A DNA stretch of 43,317 nucleotides from contig CALENB010000354.1 of assembly GCA_937910235.1 (NCBI GenBank), forward strand, positions 1 to 43,317. Direction: 5' to 3'. Positions 2,734-21,484 of this stretch are shown here, piece by piece. The stretch is from an uncultured Myxococcales bacterium (GTDB lineage: Bacteria; Myxococcota_A; UBA9042). The position numbers and the translations under genes were made by a program. The stretch's first letter is position 1. Each line of letters begins with the position of its first letter. The notes beneath the pieces were generated by a model. The model made no database searches. It was not told where the DNA came from and saw nothing but the letters and a program-made list of their open reading frames with translations.

Positions 2734-4266
2734 GTTGTCGTCCGCCCGCAGCCCGAGCACCAACAAGTCCGGCGCGGCCGGGTGGTGCACGATCTCGACG
2801 ATGCCCGCGATCGGGTGATTCACCCACGTCAGCTTGGCCCCAGGTGCGCCGTCATCGTAGCGGTACAGGTTGGTGCCATAGCCCGAGAAACACGTGCCAA
2901 ACGCCCATCGGACGACGTTGGCGTCGGTGGCGTCGGGCCGCAGGTGGACGCCGTTCGTCAGCGTCACGTCGTTAACCTGCAGGTGGGCCACGACCTTTGA
3001 AAACGAGCCGCCCCCGTCGGTCGAACGCCACAGGTACTTGCCGTTTGTCTTCGATGGGATCTGAAGCGACTCATTGAGATCGATCGCCATCGCCCAGACG
3101 GTGGACTCCTCCACCGGCGAAAACGCGACGTTCATGCCGTTGAGATTTTGCGGCGTGATCGCGCCGACGAAGTTGGCGGCCGCCCACGACTTCCCGCCAT
3201 CCGTCGTCAGAAAGAGCCCCTTCGTCATCGCGCCGTAGATGACCCTGTCGAGGTTGAGTGGGCTGAACCCGACGCGGTAGCCGGTGCCGCCGCTCACGGC
3301 AGCCTTGCCGATCTGCTGCCACAATCCGCTGCCCGCCGTCGTGTTCTGCCACAGCTGCCCGGTTGTGCCTCCGACGCGCACCACGTCCGCCTGCTTCGGA
3401 TGCACCCCCAGGCCGAGCAGATTGGCGGTGGGGGCCGTGAGCGTGGTCACCGTGGCGTTATCCAGCCGCACGAGGGTTTGGCCATTGTCGTAGAACGCGT
3501 ACGCGCGGTGCCCCGGCGCGCCGATCATCCGCAAGGGGCTCGTGGGCGCGCTTCCGATCGGCGTCCACGCGCATCCGGCGTCAGTGGAGTGATAGACCGT
3601 GCCGGCGTGTTCTGCGTACAGCACGTTCGCCGCACCCACGGCGGTCAAGCCCATGGTGTACGTCTTGCCAAGCTGCACGGCCGCGGTAGAGATCTGCAGC
3701 GTCGCCCCGCCCTTCGGTCCGAACGCGACGCCCGGCGCGCCGGTGGGTGTCGTACACGTCGGCAAGGTCCACGACGTCGGGCCGGCATCGAGCGTGTCGG
3801 ACGCCGCATCGCCTGACACATCGCCCGCGCCGCCGCCATCCGACCCAGCAGCGTCCGACCCAGCAGCGTCCAAACCAGCAGCGTCCAAACCAGCGGCATC
3901 GGCGCTTGAAGCGTCCTGGTTTACGGGGTCTGCGTCAGCCGCGTCTGCGTGAGCCGTGTCTGGTCCAGCGACGTCCGCGTCGGCCGCGTCTGGGGGGTTC
4001 ACGTCTGGGGCGGCCACGTCCACAGCGACGCCGTCCGTGCTCTGGGCGGCGTCCGCGTCTGCTGCCACGTCCACTGCCACGTCAGTGGTGACAGGCGTGG
4101 TGGCCGCTTCGCTGCAGCCCGCGGCCAGCGCGGCCAAGAGCCACACAGTCGCCCAACCACCTAGCGTCGTCGCCCGATCAGACGGCCAACCGCGCCGCGC
4201 TGTCGGCAGTGAGTCAGCGGCCCAAGCGCGGCAGCGTGGGCGCATGTCTAGTGTGGGCTGTGTCAT
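2719..4266 (-). CDS. Surface lipoprotein with sortilin/BNR-like propeller
   Basis: A 515-residue predicted lipoprotein. From the ATG at 4266 there is a rather long basic n-region, a hydrophobic core (WATVWLLAALAAGC) and a lipobox LAAGC. A low-complexity Asp/Ala/Val linker of about 100 residues follows, part of it made by a 15-bp DNA repeat. The folded part, about residues 165-515, has repeated turns such as STDAGCAWTP, TTDGGKSWAA and STDGGGSFSK, the Asp-box/BNR signature of sortilin-like and photosystem-assembly-like beta-propellers. It is therefore probably displayed at the cell surface or periplasm with an unknown ligand. It diverges from the ATPase gene with about 105 bp between starts. 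A second propeller with the same motifs is encoded at 39013-40437. An alternative upstream start at 4317 adds 17 polar residues and is less likely. Confidence 0.75.
   Translation of the reverse strand: MTQPTLDMRPRCRAWAADSLPTARRGWPSDRATTLGGWATVWLLAALAAGCSEAATTPVTTDVAVDVAADADAAQSTDGVAVDVAAPDVNPPDAADADVAGPDTAHADAADADPVNQDASSADAAGLDAAGLDAAGSDAAGSDGGGAGDVSGDAASDTLDAGPTSWTLPTCTTPTGAPGVAFGPKGGATLQISTAAVQLGKTYTMGLTAVGAANVLYAEHAGTVYHSTDAGCAWTPIGSAPTSPLRMIGAPGHRAYAFYDNGQTLVRLDNATVTTLTAPTANLLGLGVHPKQADVVRVGGTTGQLWQNTTAGSGLWQQIGKAAVSGGTGYRVGFSPLNLDRVIYGAMTKGLFLTTDGGKSWAAANFVGAITPQNLNGMNVAFSPVEESTVWAMAIDLNESLQIPSKTNGKYLWRSTDGGGSFSKVVAHLQVNDVTLTNGVHLRPDATDANVVRWAFGTCFSGYGTNLYRYDDGAPGAKLTWVNHPIAGIVEIVHHPAAPDLLVLGLRADDNPQCP
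3842..3901. repeat. 15-bp tandem repeat x4 in lipoprotein linker
   Basis: Four 15-bp units, the first two identical (GACCCAGCAGCGTCC) and the last two diverged at their ends. Read on the minus strand they encode the Asp-Ala-Ala-Gly-Leu/Ser part of the linker after the lipobox of the BNR lipoprotein. Confidence 0.85.
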
Positions 4267-4370
4267 GATTGGCTCCACTGAGCCCCTCTCCGAGCCTGCA
4301 GAGTCGTAGGGTGTCATCTGCCGCTGGGCTCGTCGACAGAGACGTCCACTTCTTCACGCCGAGGCTGGCC

Positions 4371-6089
4371 ATGGCTGCTGCACCCGACGACATCACAGGC
4401 CTCACCGCGCGGCTGCGTGGCATCGATGGTCGCAACTACGGCGCCTACAAGACGCTCGCCGGGGTGTGGCGCCTCGATAACTGCGATCTGCGTATCGACC
4501 ACGTGCAAGGCGATCCCTTTGCGTCGCCCTCCCGCGTCACGTTGCTGGTGGACGCGAGGACTGCTGTCTTGCCAGATTGGGCGGTGTCGACCCCACGGCG
4601 CCGCGTGAGCACCGCAGACTTCTTGCTGCGTCGCCTCGTGATCGTCGCCCGCGACCTCAGCCGACACCGTGGATCGGGCGGATCGGGCGTGATCTCGGTG
4701 ATCCAGCCCGGCCAGGAGGTGCTTGAGCGCTCCGCGATGATCGTCCGCGCCGATGGTCGGGTCGAGGCGCGTGTGCGGATCGGACTGCCGGCGTCAGGTC
4801 GCCGCGTCTTGAGTCGCGAGGCCCTCGCGCTGCTGCTCGACGACCTGCCCGATCTCGTCGAACACGCCCTGCGCGCGGACACGCTGGATCAGGGTGCGCT
4901 GCGTCGCCAGGTGTATAGCGTCGAAGACCAGCAGGCCCTGCGCGATCAACTCGAGGCGCGCGGACTCGTCGCGTTTGTGGCCGATGGCGCCATCTTGCCG
5001 CGCCACAGTGGCGTCGATCCCCGGCCTATGAGCGGCGATGTCGTCGCCTTCACCGCGCCAGCTACGCTCGCCGTCGTGCTGGAGACCCCCCACGCCGGTC
5101 CGCTCCGCGGGATGGGGCTGCGGGAGGGCCTGTCGCTCATCGTTGGCGGCGGCTACCACGGCAAGTCGACCCTGCTGCGCGCCCTTGAACTCGGGGTCTA
5201 CGACCATATCCCTGGCGACGGTCGCGCGGCGGTTGTGGCGCGGGGCGACGCCGTCAAAGTACGCGCCGAGGATGGTCGGGCCGTCAGCGCGCTCGACATC
5301 TCGCTGTTCATTGGCGAACTGCCCGGCGGCATCGACACACGCACCTTCACCACGCGCGACGCCAGCGGCTCCACGTCCCAGGCGGCGGCGATCGAGGAGG
5401 CGCGCGCCGTGGGTTGCCAGCTGTTGCTCATCGACGAGGATACGTCCGCGACCAACCTGCTCGTGCGCGACGACGTAATGGCGGCGCTGGTCGGCGCCGA
5501 CAAGGAGCCCATCACGCCCCTCGTGTCTCGCATCGCCCATCTGCGCGAGTCCGGCTGCTCGCTGATCGTCGTGATCGGGGGGACAAGCGACTACTTCTCG
5601 CAGGCTGACACAGTGGTGTGGATGGACCAGTGGCGCGCCGTCGACGCGACGGGTGCGGCCCATGCCCTGGTTGACGCGGCGCCGGCGCAGGCAGCAGCGT
5701 CAGTCAGGACAGCTCGCGCCCAGCCGCCACGCGAACGAGCCACGCCGTGGCGACTTCCGGCGGACGCCATCGACCTGCACGACGACAAAGGCCGCCTCCG
5801 CGTGCGCGCCGACGACGTGCGGCGGCTAGACCTCGGGCGCGGCGAAGTCGATCTGCGCGCTATCGGCCAGCTGGTCGCGCCCGGGCAGGCCCTCGCGGCG
5901 GGGCTCGCGCTGGGTCTGGTGCGCGCGGCCTTGGCGGCGGGCGCGGTGGACGTGCGCGCCGCCGTCGAGACGGCCGCCCAACGGCTGAACGCCGATGGAC
6001 TCGATGCATTGAGCGCCACGCCACGCGGCGATCTCGTTCGACCTCGACGGTATGAGATCGCCGCGATTCTTGGCCGTCTGCGCGCCTGA
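4371..6089 (+). CDS. Predicted ATPase of the ABC class (ABC_ATPase family)
   Basis: A 572-residue soluble protein of the conserved predicted ABC-class ATPase family (Pfam ABC_ATPase), which databases sometimes mislabel as isopentenyl-diphosphate isomerase. It shows the family Walker A GGGYHGKSTLLRAL near residue 260, a Walker B region LLLIDEDTSATN near residue 352 with the catalytic Glu after the Asp, and the downstream IVVIGGTSDYF strand near residue 400. The N-terminal opening LRGIDGRNYGAYKTL is also characteristic. The biochemical role of the family is not established; RNA-related functions have been proposed. The ATG at 4371 has GAGG just upstream; an in-frame start further upstream would run into the promoter region shared with the divergent lipoprotein gene. 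It stands alone, with 125 bp to the next start downstream. The family call is strong. Confidence 0.85.
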   Translation: MAAAPDDITGLTARLRGIDGRNYGAYKTLAGVWRLDNCDLRIDHVQGDPFASPSRVTLLVDARTAVLPDWAVSTPRRRVSTADFLLRRLVIVARDLSRHRGSGGSGVISVIQPGQEVLERSAMIVRADGRVEARVRIGLPASGRRVLSREALALLLDDLPDLVEHALRADTLDQGALRRQVYSVEDQQALRDQLEARGLVAFVADGAILPRHSGVDPRPMSGDVVAFTAPATLAVVLETPHAGPLRGMGLREGLSLIVGGGYHGKSTLLRALELGVYDHIPGDGRAAVVARGDAVKVRAEDGRAVSALDISLFIGELPGGIDTRTFTTRDASGSTSQAAAIEEARAVGCQLLLIDEDTSATNLLVRDDVMAALVGADKEPITPLVSRIAHLRESGCSLIVVIGGTSDYFSQADTVVWMDQWRAVDATGAAHALVDAAPAQAAASVRTARAQPPRERATPWRLPADAIDLHDDKGRLRVRADDVRRLDLGRGEVDLRAIGQLVAPGQALAAGLALGLVRAALAAGAVDVRAAVETAAQRLNADGLDALSATPRGDLVRPRRYEIAAILGRLRA

Positions 6090-10726: not shown

Positions 10727-11035
10727 GGTGTGCTCCGTCCCGCGCCGTCATCCCGCGGTGGCGCCACCATCCGGTAGCGCTGGCGGTGACATGGGTGGCG
10801 ACCGGTACGAGTTAGGGGCCCAGCGCCGCTCCGTCAATAGAAATCTCATGCCGACCGCGCGATCCGCGCTTGTTTGCGGGGCTGGCGTTCCGCTTGCACG
10901 CGCGCACACCGCTCACGCAGCTCAAGTCGCAACAAATCCTGTGAATGTGGCCGAGATTCTGCGACTCTACCGCCGTTCAGGTCCCGGCCGATCCAGCCGA
11001 AGCACAGCCCGGAGCTCAGCTCCACAGGAGGCCCC
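10727..11035. other. Divergent intergenic region, no gene seen
   Basis: This 309-bp gap separates the start of the ankyrin gene (minus strand) from the start of the SDPK-repeat gene (plus strand), so both promoters should lie here. I see no convincing -35/-10 pair, hairpin or small gene. The coding frame of the SDPK gene extends upstream to 10874, but only the ATG at 11036 has a good ribosome binding site. Confidence 0.5.
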
Positions 11036-12955
11036 ATGGCCCGCAGCTCCATCGACCGCCGGCAGGAAGGCCGTTACCCAGCGCTCGTGGCGGTGCTCAA
11101 CCGTCGCCGTGAGGTCTTCGGCCTCTGTGATCGCGAGCTCGCAGAGCGCACGCGCAGCCGCTTTGGTGCGTCGAAGAACGTCAGCCAGATCCATCGAATT
11201 TTGCATGGTGACTCCGGCACGCGGCAACGCTACGCCGAGCAGCTCGCCAACGTCGTGGACGTGGGTCGCCACGTCACGCGCCTGCTTATCGAGTTCGAAG
11301 ACGACCTGATGCCGCTCGAGTTCTCTGACGTGGCGCCGACCCGCGCTGAAGCGGACGAGGTGGTGGAGGCCTACGATCTCGACGAGGACATGTATGCGCT
11401 CCAGGGCGCCGTGCGGCTGTACGAGCGGGCCATGGGCCACACCGACCGCAACAGCCTGCACATCCGCTCTGACATGAGCTTGCTGATCGGCAAGTTGGTC
11501 CGCCTCCACGGCACCTACCCCGGTTTCATCGACGACGCGCTGCGGTTTGTCGACGACGCCATGAACCTCTATCTCGAGCTGCAGCCGGGCCACGACACGG
11601 ACTTGGAGGCCTCCGTGGTCGCCGCTGAGATTGAGCGCGCGACGATCTATCGGCGTCGTGGTCACCTCGATATGGCGCTCCGGGTGCTGACCGAGAGCCG
11701 CGCGCTGCACGCTGATGTCCTGACGCGCTCGCCGCGTTTGGACGGCAAGTGCTGGCACGGGTTTGGCGACCTCTATGAGCAGAAGAGCCTGCAATTGCAG
11801 GGCGCTCACTTCGCTGATCTGGCGCGTGAGGCGTACGGCAAGGCGCTCTCAGCCTACAAACAGGTCTCCGGCCTTCACACGCGGGTCGACGAGCAAGCCA
11901 TCGCGACCGACTTGGCGATGCTGGAGATCAGAGCCGGTGAGTTCGACGCCGCGCATCTGCGCCTCGACGCGCTGGTCGAGCGCCGCGAGCTTCCGCCGAC
12001 CGTTGAAGCCCGTCTCCACAATCGCCGCGCGTGGGCCTACCTCGGTCAGGGCGACATCATGAAGTGCCAGCGCTTCGTCAAGAAGGCCGCGCAGGCCGCG
12101 AGCGCAGCTGGTGATCCGTTGCTGATGAGCATGGCAGAGGTGTTGCGATTGGCGTTCTACGAGAGAGTGGGCATGCAGAAAAAATCCGATGTGCAGTATG
12201 ACGCCGTGCTCGATTGGGTGTACCGCGACGGGATTCGGCACGCCGAGGTGCTGCAGCCTGTCGTCAATCGCGCTCGTGACGGCGACCCAGATCCCCGTTC
12301 AGCGCGACTGGGTTGGCTGCTGCGCGCCCCGTGGCTCAACTCGCTGGTCCTCATCATGGCCGCCGCCTGGCTACCTGCCTGCACGGCCTCCTACGATCGG
12401 CTGACGTACGACGCCAACGGCGCCTCGGTCTCATTTGACGACGTTGAGCTCGACATCAACGGCCTCGTCAGCGCCGGACAGATCGCTAGCGATCCGAAGC
12501 GCGTCGCGTCGGATCCGAAGCGCGTGAGCTCCGATCCGAAACGGGTCGCATCGGACCCCAAGCAGGTGAACTCGGACCCCAAGCAGGTGAACTCGGACCC
12601 CAAGCAGGTGAGCTCGGACCCCAAGCAGGTGAGCTCGGATCCGAAGCAGGTGAGCTCAGATCCGAAGCAGGTCGCTTCTGATCCGAAGCAGGTGAGCTCA
12701 GATCCGAAGCAGGTCGCTTCTGATCCGAAGCAGGTGAGCTCAGATCCGAAGCAGGTGAGCTCAGATCCCAAGAAGGTCGCGTCTGATCCCAAGACCGCGG
12801 TTCACGCCGCCTGCGCCGGCAAAACGACCACCGCCGCCAAGGCGCCCGCGGCCGATGACTCCGATTCCAAAGCGCCCGTCACCGACAAGACGGGCGTGAC
12901 GCCCCCCGTGAAGGACGAGTCAGATCCCAAGGCGCCGATCGACACCTGCGCCTAG
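11036..12955 (+). CDS. HTH-like/helical-repeat membrane protein with SDPK heptads
   Basis: A 639-residue protein with four parts. Residues about 20-75 (CDRELAERT, NVSQIHRILHG, RQRYAEQLANVVDV) look like an XRE-like helix-turn-helix. Residues about 90-420 are helical and resemble tetratricopeptide-type repeats (AHLRLDALVERREL, RRAWAYLGQGDIMK). A hydrophobic segment spans 433-449 (WLNSLVLIMAAAWLPAC). An exported tail then carries 15 perfect-length heptads of type SDPKQVx (484-588) and an Ala/Lys/Asp-rich end. The predicted topology is cytoplasmic N terminus and outside C terminus, like a membrane-bound sensor or anti-sigma arrangement. AGGAGG precedes the ATG at 11036. LPAC at 446-449 resembles a lipobox, and an in-frame GTG at 12248 could start a separate lipoprotein with a normal signal peptide, so this may be two products or a gene fusion. 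Function is unknown. Confidence 0.75.
   Translation: MARSSIDRRQEGRYPALVAVLNRRREVFGLCDRELAERTRSRFGASKNVSQIHRILHGDSGTRQRYAEQLANVVDVGRHVTRLLIEFEDDLMPLEFSDVAPTRAEADEVVEAYDLDEDMYALQGAVRLYERAMGHTDRNSLHIRSDMSLLIGKLVRLHGTYPGFIDDALRFVDDAMNLYLELQPGHDTDLEASVVAAEIERATIYRRRGHLDMALRVLTESRALHADVLTRSPRLDGKCWHGFGDLYEQKSLQLQGAHFADLAREAYGKALSAYKQVSGLHTRVDEQAIATDLAMLEIRAGEFDAAHLRLDALVERRELPPTVEARLHNRRAWAYLGQGDIMKCQRFVKKAAQAASAAGDPLLMSMAEVLRLAFYERVGMQKKSDVQYDAVLDWVYRDGIRHAEVLQPVVNRARDGDPDPRSARLGWLLRAPWLNSLVLIMAAAWLPACTASYDRLTYDANGASVSFDDVELDINGLVSAGQIASDPKRVASDPKRVSSDPKRVASDPKQVNSDPKQVNSDPKQVSSDPKQVSSDPKQVSSDPKQVASDPKQVSSDPKQVASDPKQVSSDPKQVSSDPKKVASDPKTAVHAACAGKTTTAAKAPAADDSDSKAPVTDKTGVTPPVKDESDPKAPIDTCA
12485..12799. 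repeat. 21-bp tandem repeat x15 encoding SDPK heptads
   Basis: Fifteen uninterrupted 21-bp units without any length variation, encoding x-S-D-P-K-(R/Q/K/T)-V. Early units carry Arg at position 6, middle and late units Gln, the last two Lys and Thr. Codon variants GATCCGAAG, GACCCCAAG and GATCCCAAG occur in blocks, which suggests recent local copying. Confidence 0.95.
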
Positions 12956-17750: not shown

Positions 17751-19205
17751 TTGGGTGACCGCTCAGCCGCCGGCCCCGCTTGCACCGGCCCCGCTCGCGC
17801 CGGCCCCACTCCCGCCGGCCCCACTCCCGCCGGCCCCACTCCCGCCGATCAGTCATCGCACGATCCTCGCGATCGCCGTCCCGATCATGGTGTCGAACGC
17901 GTCCACCCCGCTGCTCGGCCTCGTCGACTTGGCCGCGGTCGGTCGGATCGGCGGTGCCGCACCTATCGCCGCCGTCGCCCTAGGCGGCCTCGTCTTCACC
18001 GCGGTGTTTGGGGCTTCAACTTCCTGCGCATGGCGACCACCGGCCTCACGGCGCAGTCCGTCGGCGCGCGTGACTCCGAGGCGCTGGCCGATCATCTCGG
18101 CCGCGCCTTGCTCGTCGCCGTCATCGTCGGCTGTGTGCTTTTTGTGCTGCAGTGGCCCATCGCAGCGCTCGGTTTCGCCTGGCTGGAGGGCTCGGCCGAG
18201 GTCGAGGCGCTCGCGCGAGACTACGTCGCGATTCGCTTCTGGTCGGCTCCTGCGACGCTCTGCAATTATGCGCTGCTAGGCTGGTTTATCGGCCTGGGTC
18301 GCGCCCGCGTCGCCCTCGCGCTGCAGCTCGTCCTCAACCTCACCAACATCGTTTTGGACGTGGTTTTTGTCGTCGGCCTTGGCTGGGGCGTCCAGGGCGT
18401 CGCCGCGGGCTCGCTGATCGCGGAGGTCGTCGCCACGGTGGTCGGGCTGCGCCTCGCCGCCGGCGTGCTGCGTGGTCACGGCGTCGCGCTGTCGTGGCGT
18501 CGGGTTCGCAGCCCCGCGGCGCTGCGCCACACCCTCGCCGTCAACGCCGACATCATGGTCCGCTCGCTGTCGCTCATGGCGGTCTTCCTGTGGTTCACAG
18601 CGCAGGGCGCTCGGCACGGCGACCTCGTCTTGGCAGCCAACGCGCTCCTCATGCAGCTCGTCGGCGTGGCGTCGTATGTGCTCGATGGTGTCGCGTTTGC
18701 CGCCGAGACGCTGACTGGGCAAGCCGTGGGTGCCCGCGATCCGGCGCGCTTGCGGCGTGTGGTCACCCTGTCGAGCGCGTGGGCCGGGTTCGCCGCGCTG
18801 CTCTTGACCGGGCTGTTCCTGCTCGCGGGCGAGGACTTGATCGCGCTGTTGACCACCGATCCGGCGCTACGCCAGCTCGCGCGCACCTACCTGCCGTGGG
18901 CGGCCTGCGTGCCGATCGCCGGCGTCACCGCCTTTCAGCTCGACGGTGTCTTCATCGGCGCGACGCGCGCGCCGGCCATGCGCAACGCGATGCTGCAGTC
19001 GCTCGTCGTCTTCGCCGTCGCTTGGTGGCTGCTCCGGCCCTGGGCCAATCACGGCCTGTGGGCTGCCCTGTACGCTCACTACGCGGCGCGGACGGTGACG
19101 TTGCTGGCGCGCTACCCCGCCCTCGCGCGGGTCGCGCACCACAACCCGGCGTCACACCACCCCGCCGTGTCCGCGCCTACTTCGCCGTCATCGCCGTCCA
19201 GCTGA
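17704..19205 (+). pseudogene. MATE-family multidrug exporter, frameshifted
   Basis: A DinF-like MATE transporter that needs two reading frames. The first frame, from ATG 17704 or GTG 17755, carries a Pro-Ala-Leu repeat and then the first helix (ISHRTILAIAVPIMVSNAST, LLGLVDLAAVGRIGG) up to AVF at 18009. The family continuation WGFNFLRMATTGLTAQSVGA is one frame away and runs to 19205 with the remaining helices (GWFIGLGRARVALALQLVLN, FQLDGVFIGATRAPAMRNAM). One missing T in TTTGGGG at 18007-18013 restores a full-length protein of normal size. The gene is otherwise intact, so a sequencing error or very recent mutation is likely. MATE proteins export cationic drugs using Na+ or H+. Its 3' end overlaps the convergent lipoprotein gene by 29 bp. 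Confidence 0.8.
17770..17844. repeat. 15-bp tandem repeat x5 at MATE N terminus
   Basis: Five 15-bp units, CCGGCCCCGCTTGCA and CCGGCCCCGCTCGCG, then three identical CCGGCCCCACTCCCG. They encode PAPLA, PAPLA, PAPLP, PAPLP, PAPLP ahead of the first transmembrane helix of the MATE protein. Confidence 0.92.
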
Positions 19206-20226
19206 AGCCGCCGCAGCCCTTGCCCGTCAGGTCCGTGTCATCCGCGGTTTTGCTGGTCTTCTGCGCCGCGGCGAGGCTGTCGAGGCCGAAATCGACCGTG
19301 CAGAAGTGCCACTTGCCCGCCACCGGCTGTGTCCACACGATCTTGTTCCATGTACCCGGGCCGAACTTGGCGTCGTCGGGATTGCGCGAATAGGCGACGT
19401 TCTTGCTGTTGTCGAAGGCTTCGAGCCACGCGTACCCCCAAGCCTGCCTGTTGATCGTCTCGCCGCTGCCGAAGTTGGTCTGCCACTGCCCGACCGTCTC
19501 CAAGGCCGTCAGGGTCGTCCACGCAAAGCCCGCACAGCCCGATTTCTCGGGCGCGCCGTCGTTGGCCGTCTTGGTGCTCTGCTCAGCGAGCGCCAGGCTG
19601 TCGAGGCCAAAATCGACGATGCAGTAGTGCGTCGTCCAGACCTGGAAGCCACCGACCGCGCTCTGCTTGGGCGCCGTCCACTGCAGCTTGCTGAACTTGC
19701 TTGGGTTGTACTGATCATCCTTGGCGTTCTGGGCGAAGAGCACCCGCTTGTCGTTGTCGAACTTCACGACGCTCGCCGCACCGAATGGCGTGGTCCAGGT
19801 CGCGTCGGTGAGACGCTCGTTGCCGCCGAAGTTGCTCTGCCATAGCCCAGCGATCTCGATCTTCTGCGCCGTAAAAGGCCGAAGACTCGGGCTCCCAGCG
19901 TCGCCGGACATCGCATCTCCCGCCGCCGCATCTCCCGCCGCCGCATCTCCCGCCGCCGCATCTCCCGCCGTGGCGTCGTCCGATCCGCCGTCCTTCGCGG
20001 CCTCGCCAGCGTCGCTGCCCGCGCCGTCGTCCGTGGTGCCGCTGTCTGCGCCGCTGTCTGCGCTGGAGCCGTCGCCTCCCGCGCTGTCGAGCGTCACGCC
20101 GTCTGTGCCGCCGTCTGTCGCCGCGGAGGTCGTCGTCTCGCTTCCGCAGCCAATGAGCGAGGTGAGCAGGGCGCACATGAGGAGCGCGCGGCTCGGATTT
20201 GAACGCTGGATCGTGAGGGTCGTCAT
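19177..20226 (-). CDS. Lipoprotein with duplicated Cys domain, B12-riboswitch controlled
   Basis: A 349-residue predicted lipoprotein. From the ATG at 20226 there is a signal peptide (NPSRALLMCALLTSLIGCG) with lipobox LIGC, then an Asp/Ala/Gly/Ser linker of about 85 residues, partly built from 15-bp repeats. Two homologous domains of about 115 residues follow. Each begins with G-x-W-Q-(S/T)-N-F-G, has a conserved F-D-N-(D/S)-K core, a C-x-VDFGLDSLA segment, and ends in K-(S/G)-GC-(A/G)-GF-(A/S)-WT. So each domain has two Cys that may form a disulphide. I know no named family. The first gene downstream of the cobalamin riboswitch on this strand is this one, 144 bp from the aptamer, so B12 probably represses it. 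A role in binding or capturing cobalamin is a hypothesis only. Confidence 0.75.
   Translation of the reverse strand: MTTLTIQRSNPSRALLMCALLTSLIGCGSETTTSAATDGGTDGVTLDSAGGDGSSADSGADSGTTDDGAGSDAGEAAKDGGSDDATAGDAAAGDAAAGDAAAGDAMSGDAGSPSLRPFTAQKIEIAGLWQSNFGGNERLTDATWTTPFGAASVVKFDNDKRVLFAQNAKDDQYNPSKFSKLQWTAPKQSAVGGFQVWTTHYCIVDFGLDSLALAEQSTKTANDGAPEKSGCAGFAWTTLTALETVGQWQTNFGSGETINRQAWGYAWLEAFDNSKNVAYSRNPDDAKFGPGTWNKIVWTQPVAGKWHFCTVDFGLDSLAAAQKTSKTADDTDLTGKGCGGFSWTAMTAK
19906..19980. repeat. 15-bp tandem repeat in lipoprotein linker
   Basis: Three perfect CGCCGCCGCATCTCC units at 19921-19965, flanked by one degenerate unit on each side. On the minus strand they encode repeated Gly-Asp-Ala-Ala-Ala in the linker between lipobox and the first folded domain. 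Confidence 0.9.
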
Positions 20227-20342
20227 CGGTGGTCTCCACAACAGTTCGCTCGGCGAGCGCGCCAAGCGTGGTGAGAGCAACCGATGAGAGCACCTTGGGT
20301 GGATGACGAGTTCGTCAGCGGCTCGTGCGCTGTGGTGAACGA

Positions 20343-20395
20343 CAAGTCGGGCCCTATGGTCGCGAGGGCAGCCCATCCAAGGAGTTCCCGACTTG
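20343..20395 (-). promoter_or_regulatory. Switch hairpin of the cobalamin riboswitch
   Basis: The 9-mer CAAGTCGGG (minus strand, 20395-20387), which is the conserved 3' strand of the aptamer, is perfectly complementary to CCCGACTTG at 20351-20343. The downstream copy can therefore steal this strand from the aptamer, which is a usual design for an expression platform. No U-run follows, so control by translation or by a later structure is more likely than a simple terminator; a second hairpin (20249-20266) lies just before the ribosome binding site. Confidence 0.6.
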
Positions 20396-20500
20396 CGTGC
20401 ACCATCGGTTTGATCCGGGTGATGCCAGCTCACGGTTGCGCGTCAGCCCCGGATTTGCACCGGGTTCCTCCTATGCCACGACGCCCCAACCAGGGGTGCG
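20370..20500 (-). ncRNA. Cobalamin riboswitch aptamer
   Basis: On the minus strand the core reads ATAGGAGGAA, then CCCGGTGCAAATCCGGG, then GCTGACGCGCAACCGTGAGC. This matches the conserved centre of the cobalamin element (A-G-G-G-A-A, G-G-T-G-C-A-A-A-T-C-C, G-C-T-G-x-C-x-C-G-C-A-A-C-x-G-T). The string GCTGACGCGCA also occurs in the E. coli btuB leader as I recall it. Further downstream, CAAGTCGGGAACTCC corresponds to the 3' conserved strand (G-A-G-T-C-x-G-G-A-x-A-C-C-T-G-C-C in other members). The aptamer precedes the lipoprotein gene ending at 19177 and is head to head with the desaturase gene. The boundaries are approximate. I am confident of the class and less sure of the helices outside the core. 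Confidence 0.85.
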
Positions 20501-20595
20501 TAGCGATCGCGGTGTACGTCAGGCGATCGGCGGAGGCAAGGGGGCGTCGCTCCGTCCCGTCGCCGAGCAGCGCAGTTCGCTTGGGGATCTCTCTG

Positions 20596-20629: not shown

Positions 20630-21484
20630 ATGATCGCATCTCAACCCATCTGGAAGTCCTTCGCCCGTCGCGTCGCGTGGCGCACGGTGGCGTTGGCGGC
20701 GCTCGTGCTCGCGGGCTACATCACCTTGGTCCGCTTCGCGCTGAGCGGCGACGTGTCGTGGTGGCTCGCCGCGCCAGGTCTGACCGCGCTGGCCTACGTC
20801 GCGTTCACGCCGATGCACGAGGCTTCCCACGGCAACGTGTCTGGCGGCGTCAACGGTTGGCGGTGGCTGGATCCCGTCGTCGGCTGGGGCATGAGCCTCG
20901 TCTTTGCGGCCCCGTTTCCGGCTTTTCGCGCCGTGCATCTACGCCATCATGGCCGGACCAATCACCGCGATGACGATCCCGACGCCTGGGTCGCGGGCGA
21001 CTCGTGGTGGCAGGTGATCGCGCGCTGTTGGACCATTTTTCCGCACTACGACTGGGTCTATCTTCGTCGGCTCATGTGGCTGACGCCCGCGGCGCAGCGG
21101 GAGGGCTGGCGTGTCGTCGCGGCGTTTGTCGCCACCGGCCTGGGTCTGGTCGCGCTCATCGCACAAGGCCACGGCGCCGCGCTGTTCGCGCTGTGGCTGG
21201 GACCAGCGTGGGCCGCCAGTGGGCTGCTCGCCCTGGCGTTCGACTGGCTGCCCCACGTCCCGCATCAGCGGACCGGACGCTATGTCGACACCCGCGCAAT
21301 CGACGTGCGTTGGCTGGACGCGCCGCTGCTGGGCCAGAACCTGCACGCCATTCATCATCTCTATCCGAGGGTGCCGTTTTATCGCTACCGCGCCACGTTC
21401 GACGCCATGGCCCCCGAGCTGGAGTCGAGGGGCACCGAGGTCGTGCGATTTCGCCGCGGCGGCAGAAGCGCTAGGATGCCGTGA
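20630..21484 (+). CDS. Membrane fatty-acid desaturase / carotene hydroxylase-like
   Basis: A 284-residue di-iron membrane oxygenase. It carries the three histidine boxes of the family: HEASHGN (HxxxH-type) near residue 64, HLRHHGRTNH (HxxHH) near residue 103, and HAIHHLYP (HxxHH) near residue 240, with four hydrophobic segments placed as usual. Members insert double bonds in acyl chains or hydroxylate carotenoid rings using O2 and a reductant. The short length and box spacing resemble the CrtR/beta-carotene hydroxylase side as well as short desaturases, so the substrate is open. The start is the ATG at 20630, shortly after the inverted repeat. It has no coupled neighbour; dapF follows by 73 bp on the same strand. 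Confidence 0.82.
   Translation: MIASQPIWKSFARRVAWRTVALAALVLAGYITLVRFALSGDVSWWLAAPGLTALAYVAFTPMHEASHGNVSGGVNGWRWLDPVVGWGMSLVFAAPFPAFRAVHLRHHGRTNHRDDDPDAWVAGDSWWQVIARCWTIFPHYDWVYLRRLMWLTPAAQREGWRVVAAFVATGLGLVALIAQGHGAALFALWLGPAWAASGLLALAFDWLPHVPHQRTGRYVDTRAIDVRWLDAPLLGQNLHAIHHLYPRVPFYRYRATFDAMAPELESRGTEVVRFRRGGRSARMP

Follow-up and report, generated by a model that had tools for sequence, protein, structure and literature searches.

The question raised by this locus is what a cobalamin riboswitch controls when the first gene behind it encodes a lipoprotein of no assigned family, and whether that lipoprotein could itself take part in the acquisition of vitamin B12. The locus lies within 43,317 nucleotides of DNA from an uncultured Myxococcales bacterium (hereafter the window), whose initial annotation had proposed a cobalamin aptamer core on the minus strand and a 349-residue lipoprotein with two homologous cysteine-containing domains as its target. 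We find that the riboswitch is real, that its coupling to this type of gene recurs across the phylum, and that the relatives' gene neighbourhoods agree with a role in B12 uptake, while the binding of cobalamin by the protein remains an inference.

An Rfam search of the 43-kb window returned a single match to any family, the cobalamin riboswitch aptamer RF00174 at 20511-20362 (positions 20362 to 20511, minus strand), aligned over the full length of the model by cmscan with 37.5 bits (E 4.2e-6; gathering score 31.5); no other RF00174 match was returned from the 7.1-Mb genome. With a score above gathering and the conserved core motifs in place, the test of membership in RF00174 is met. Compared with typical members of the family the aptamer is low-scoring and its 5' arm matches poorly, and it shares with them the full-length match and the conserved core. 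Stem covariation supports the assignment: in an alignment with the leaders of ten relatives, 8 of 20 consensus pairs keep their pairing through changes on both sides and the core is invariant, these counts coming from the alignment without the G016x version, a sequence from which an insertion had been removed by hand. The proposed aptamer core, including the quoted motifs, was thus upheld; the Infernal score, which would have spoken against it had it fallen below threshold, did not, and only the end coordinate of 20500 proved slightly short.

The aptamer ends 135 nt before the ATG at 20226 of the lipoprotein gene (19177 to 20226, minus strand; 349 aa), which was delineated from its open reading frame and a distant match to NF047669 as encoding a LIC13354-like double-domain lipoprotein, and which is, as had been proposed, the first gene behind the riboswitch. 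A longer reading frame from a GTG at 20433 reads back through the aptamer and is unlikely to mark the start. The gene is monocistronic, lying between a convergent MatE transporter gene (17751-19205, plus strand) and a divergent fatty acid desaturase gene (20630-21484, plus strand). Its first part (20146 to 20226, minus strand) encodes, as read from the sequence, a signal peptide and the lipobox LIGC (residues 24-27) with the lipidated Cys27, so that the test for a bacterial lipoprotein is met, and most homologues in the family likewise carry a lipobox. A linker of 95 Ala, Gly, Asp, Ser and Thr residues with AAAGD repeats follows (19861 to 20145, minus strand), and then the two predicted tandem domains, delimited by profile matches and an AlphaFold2 model: domain 1 at 19507 to 19860 (minus strand; residues 123-240; 147.7 bits) and domain 2 at 19180 to 19503 (minus strand; residues 242-349; 152.1 bits). 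They share 49 identities over 106 aligned positions and contain two cysteines each, in agreement with the initial description; in the domain alignment G5, both cysteines (80 and 109) and W114 are invariant and W61 nearly so, and homologues carry from one to three copies per protein.

Sequence comparison places this protein outside named families. No Pfam family matches it, and a search of the PDB with the domain profile gave no match up to E 1, so that membership of the BtuG, BtuH or BtuJ (DUF4465) families by sequence is not met. The NCBIfam model NF047669 (LIC13354 family) scores it at 50.3 bits (E 3.3e-13), far below the curated cut-off of 130; the protein is a distant homologue of LIC13354 and not a member by the curated rule. 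The window genome also holds a paralogue with three domain copies, behind a hybrid histidine kinase gene (G000:C39:94-1413, locus L003), and no riboswitch was detected in front of it.

A first objection is that the match reflects a chance or decayed riboswitch-like sequence without any bearing on the lipoprotein, a possibility favoured by the modest 37.5 bits and by several family members lying just below the gathering threshold. Within the window's family, sampled through 22 genomes, the lipoprotein domain protein is present in 17, and in 16 of these the gene is preceded, on its own strand and contig, by an RF00174 match, at or above gathering in 11 and below it (22-31 bits) but in place in five; the seventeenth genome (G018) shows only a weak partial match (18.8 bits), cut off by the end of the contig. 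A riboswitch is therefore usually found before the homologues, and the outcome that would have refuted the original proposal, homologues never led by a riboswitch, was not seen.

The arrangement also holds beyond the family. The domain profile matched 118 of 379 genomes of the phylum; for the search of named contigs (most of them from MAGs of Myxococcota, together with the cultured Lujinxingia vulgaris TMQ2, L123) an alignment of closer sequences was used, the window protein alone having matched nothing and a wide alignment being too diverse. RF00174 is found with 62-91 bits in 12 of the 13 high-scoring loci L094-L106, the remaining one (L103) beginning at a contig edge, and in 17 of 18 and 8 of 13 loci of two further sets of named contigs. 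So as not to test only the best homologues, weaker and often multi-domain ones were sampled as well (39 loci from many families, 176 kb): RF00174 reaches gathering in 29, in each case on the strand of the gene and at a distance of 115-1095 nt before the first domain; the rest of the 176 kb is free of such matches. Outside the window's family, a full-score RF00174 match precedes 53 of 64 non-redundant testable domain genes on the same strand, with 60-119 bits in many loci, and 11 of the 64 have no match at threshold. Two loci of spirochaete MAGs without RF00174 at threshold have, just before the gene, a match to the AdoCbl riboswitch RF01482 (L126, 41.2 bits, E 3.4e-4; L145, 33.2 bits, E 0.025), which is below the gathering score of 50 and only suggestive. 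These counts rest on MAGs, and some loci share a genome; the figures on 64 genes and, below, on 70 genes are non-redundant.

The coupling of riboswitch and domain is accordingly shown at the scale of the phylum, and the conserved arrangement among homologues, which is what we ask of a B12 regulon, is met, with the control itself not measured. Against the chance explanation stand the constant placement and orientation of the riboswitch (16 of 17 genomes inside the family, 53 of 64 testable genes outside it), the high scores of many homologous loci and the compensatory changes in the stems; the comparative data therefore already refute it, and we regard it as all but excluded. That the riboswitch is genuine and controls the lipoprotein gene is very likely, neither this control nor the binding of cobalamin by the RNA having been measured. 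Two side observations concern individual loci: in L120 the riboswitch in front of the main copy is itself directly preceded by a second single-domain paralogue (3959-4534), and myxococcal-type loci occur in two MAG records under the titles Klebsiella pneumoniae and Bifidobacterium breve (L132 and L136), labels that look wrong.

How the switch might act can only be inferred. Downstream of the aptamer, a putative anti-aptamer strand of the expression platform, CCCGACTTG (20343 to 20351, minus strand), is the exact 9-nt complement of CAAGTCGGG (20387 to 20395, minus strand), a candidate switching partner inside the aptamer that belongs to its conserved 3' arm, and a relative (G002) keeps 7 of the 9 complementary positions. 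It is possible that this pairing, between 20351-20343 and 20395-20387, forms the ligand-free state. The candidate Shine-Dalgarno sequence GGAG (20234 to 20237, minus strand) is placed by pairing probabilities in a predicted hairpin with the ATG. No intrinsic terminator was found downstream of the aptamer, which leaves a terminator-based switch unsupported; the lack of a terminator, together with a ribosome-binding site and start codon in a predicted hairpin, therefore favours translational repression by cobalamin as the probable mode, the sign and level of regulation not having been shown. On this model, plentiful cobalamin would bind the nascent 5' leader, which would hide the ribosome-binding site and start codon and keep lipoprotein synthesis low; under cobalamin shortage, the leader would refold, the 9-nt downstream strand would pair with the conserved 3' arm of the aptamer, and the lipoprotein would be produced.

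The neighbours of the domain gene in relatives bear directly on function. A partner gene, often downstream and encoding a second lipoprotein that belongs or is related to the LIC_13355 family, is adjacent to, overlaps or is fused to the domain gene at 66 of the 95 loci, or for 45 of the 70 genes left after removal of duplicates, a partner operon that we consider shown, and the five family genomes without the domain protein are also without the partner. Against the LIC_13355 family model (NF033170, cut-off 120), the partners of L146 and L145 score above the cut-off, at 150.5 and 222.6 bits, and the copy in L123 below it, at 50.2 bits. A PDB sequence search with the partner profile gave no match. 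The AlphaFold2 model of the partner, built from 15 sequences (pLDDT 90.4), has as its top match the B12-binding domain of BtuH2 (7biz, Z 14.1, 153 residues, 2.6 A), followed by the corresponding part of BtuG1 (BtuGH; 8blw, Z 13.8), the next unrelated rows starting from 10.7; Foldseek independently ranked 8blw first (E 8.5e-5). The 8blw protein of B. theta is a fusion of BtuG and BtuH, both parts of which bind cobalamin (PMC12751083). The BtuH-like fold of the partner is thus established as a prediction.

TonB receptors complete the picture. L146 has the order riboswitch, domain, partner, TonB receptor, and among NCBIfam models the last is matched best by TIGR01779, that of the vitamin B12 receptor, with a score far below the equivalog cut-off. 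L145, from Leptospiraceae, carries between 4614 and 9239 a LIC13354-like domain, LIC_13355, DUF4430, DUF6580 and a TonB receptor, possibly a complete B12 uptake operon; DUF4430 also occurs in transcobalamins, in their C-terminal part (PMC4350170). Taking a TonB receptor and/or a BtuH-fold partner in the operon as the mark of B12 uptake, L146, L127, L145, L199, L200 and L216 qualify. As separate observations, domain and partner are fused in one long riboswitch-led protein in L199 and L200, where a same-strand TonB receptor frame overlaps, and in L140 (2940-6639) the riboswitch leads an unassigned lipoprotein whose sequence looks propeller-like, followed by a protein that fuses domain and partner and by an ATP-pyrophosphatase of the DUF71-like family PF01902. 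A role in B12 salvage has earlier been proposed for this family. In the window's genus the partner is unlinked (on contig C504 in the window genome), not led by a riboswitch, and found behind an enoyl-CoA hydratase-like gene in two of four genomes; there, the lipoprotein is therefore the gene that kept the switch.

The B12 physiology of the family points the same way. CbiC, which is needed for corrin ring synthesis, is absent from all 22 family genomes, and the domain of the B12-dependent methionine synthase MetH is present in 19, including the window genome, so that these bacteria must scavenge B12; their gene content is that of B12 scavengers. The family's other riboswitches precede TonB receptors at 14 of the 16 loci inspected, the two exceptions being one that ends at a contig edge (L053) and a 26-bit match before no B12 gene (L015), and the three riboswitch-led receptors checked in NCBIfam match, among other models, that of BtuB. 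The weak RF00174 match in G002:C130 (26 bits), which precedes no B12 gene, was dropped. The initial statement that no btu or cob gene lies nearby held locally; a BtuB-like receptor exists elsewhere in the window genome, on contig C519 and not near the lipoprotein, and no riboswitch was detected with it.

These data also bear on a further alternative, that the gene encodes a B12-independent replacement enzyme or a cobalt-handling protein. Cobalamin riboswitches do control genes of both kinds in other bacteria. Against this reading, the window lipoprotein has no match to an enzyme family in Pfam, it consists of two small domains of mostly beta structure, the conserved neighbours of its homologues are the BtuH-fold lipoprotein and, in some loci, TonB receptors, and the window genome retains the B12-dependent MetH; we hold it to be very unlikely.

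Whether the domain itself binds cobalamin is less certain. The two domains are confidently modelled by AlphaFold2 (pLDDT 95.3), each with a high content of beta strands, and the model of domain 1 finds only weak matches, to lipocalin-like folds with Z up to 7.6 and avidin-like folds with Z of about 6. Common arrangements also reach scores in this range (Z 6-7.6), and the resemblance serves as no more than a hint, which could fit a small ligand-binding barrel. No convincing fold match to any solved B12-binding protein was obtained for the domain; BtuG, BtuH and BtuJ are absent from the listed fold matches of the window model, an absence that does not exclude them, and from these predictions the domain may be calycin-like and different from theirs.

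It must hence be considered that the lipoprotein is a non-binding accessory of a B12-uptake system, a scaffold for the partner or receptor, or a vesicle-release factor like BtuL. In support, two B. theta lipoproteins encoded in B12-uptake operons, BtuL and BtuK2, show no detectable binding of cobalamin (PMC12751083), the BtuH-like fold belongs to the partner and not to the window domain, and the number of domain copies differs between proteins, from one to three. Against it, the riboswitch in the window's genus drives the lipoprotein gene alone with the partner elsewhere and without a riboswitch, and several Trp and aromatic positions of these small barrel domains hardly vary, which is what a ligand site would lead one to expect. 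On balance this alternative seems to us clearly the weaker of the two, and we lean, without binding data, toward an inferred direct binding of cobalamin by the domain.

Our preferred reading is that the lipoprotein is likely a phylum-wide, B12-repressed, outer-surface protein of B12 acquisition, its surface location, regulation, cobalamin binding and hand-over to BtuB all being inferred; the role in acquisition is itself very probable, its necessity for uptake an inference. In this scheme the protein would be exported, lipidated at Cys27 and tethered through a long linker that is flexible; cobalamin would be caught by the small beta-barrel domains, one to three in number, or by the BtuH-fold partner with their help, and would then be handed to a BtuB-like TonB receptor. 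The initial proposal of the lipoprotein as the riboswitch's target and a candidate B12-binding or B12-scavenging surface protein is supported by the conserved riboswitch, and its acquisition reading agrees with the operon partners of the relatives (the BtuH-fold lipoprotein, BtuB-like TonB receptors and DUF4430), direct binding being inferred only. A bolder version, which we would as readily doubt as defend, is that the domain is a B12-binding module of a class not described before, built as a small calycin/avidin-like barrel without relation to BtuG, BtuH, BtuJ and BtuF, which in one to three tandem copies would be a main surface B12 trap of Myxococcota, with distant relatives in spirochaetes, whose LIC13354/LIC13355 pair has been investigated solely with regard to interaction with the host.

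The closest known systems are the BtuG, BtuH and BtuJ proteins of Bacteroides (PMC8941943, PMC10404256, PMC12751083, PMC13398666), which are likewise surface lipoproteins of B12 scavengers, led by cobalamin riboswitches and encoded beside BtuB-type receptors; the likeness to BtuH extends to the predicted fold of the operon partner. Unlike them, the window domain has no sequence match to solved proteins, and its carriers are Myxococcota and not Bacteroidota. Detailed knowledge of surface B12 capture being confined to gut Bacteroides, the present locus would represent a second, independent system across Myxococcota, whose carriers include many lake and sediment bacteria as well as the cultured genus Lujinxingia, and would offer a candidate new B12-binding fold. 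A search of the open-access literature found no paper linking myxobacteria, cobalamin riboswitches and lipoproteins.

The inference extends to Leptospira, whose LIC13354 (NF047669) and LIC_13355 (NF033170) are distant homologues of the window protein and of the operon partner, respectively, and are adjacent in the Leptospiraceae genome. In host-adapted cells of Leptospira interrogans the two rise together, LIC13354 by 3.77-fold and LIC13355 by 3.72-fold (PMC3953431), and LIC_13355 has been reported as an adhesin in a paper without any mention of B12 (PMC11891782). We infer that the pair likely belongs to a B12 system, which gives two families that lack a functional name and have been discussed as adhesin or surface antigens a function that can be tested.

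Elsewhere in the window, an open reading frame at 10874-12955 (plus strand) has an N-terminal part that looks like a regulator with TPR-like repeats and a C-terminal part in which SDPK(Q/R)V is repeated many times in tandem (12391-12792) and which may serve as a spacer or surface region.
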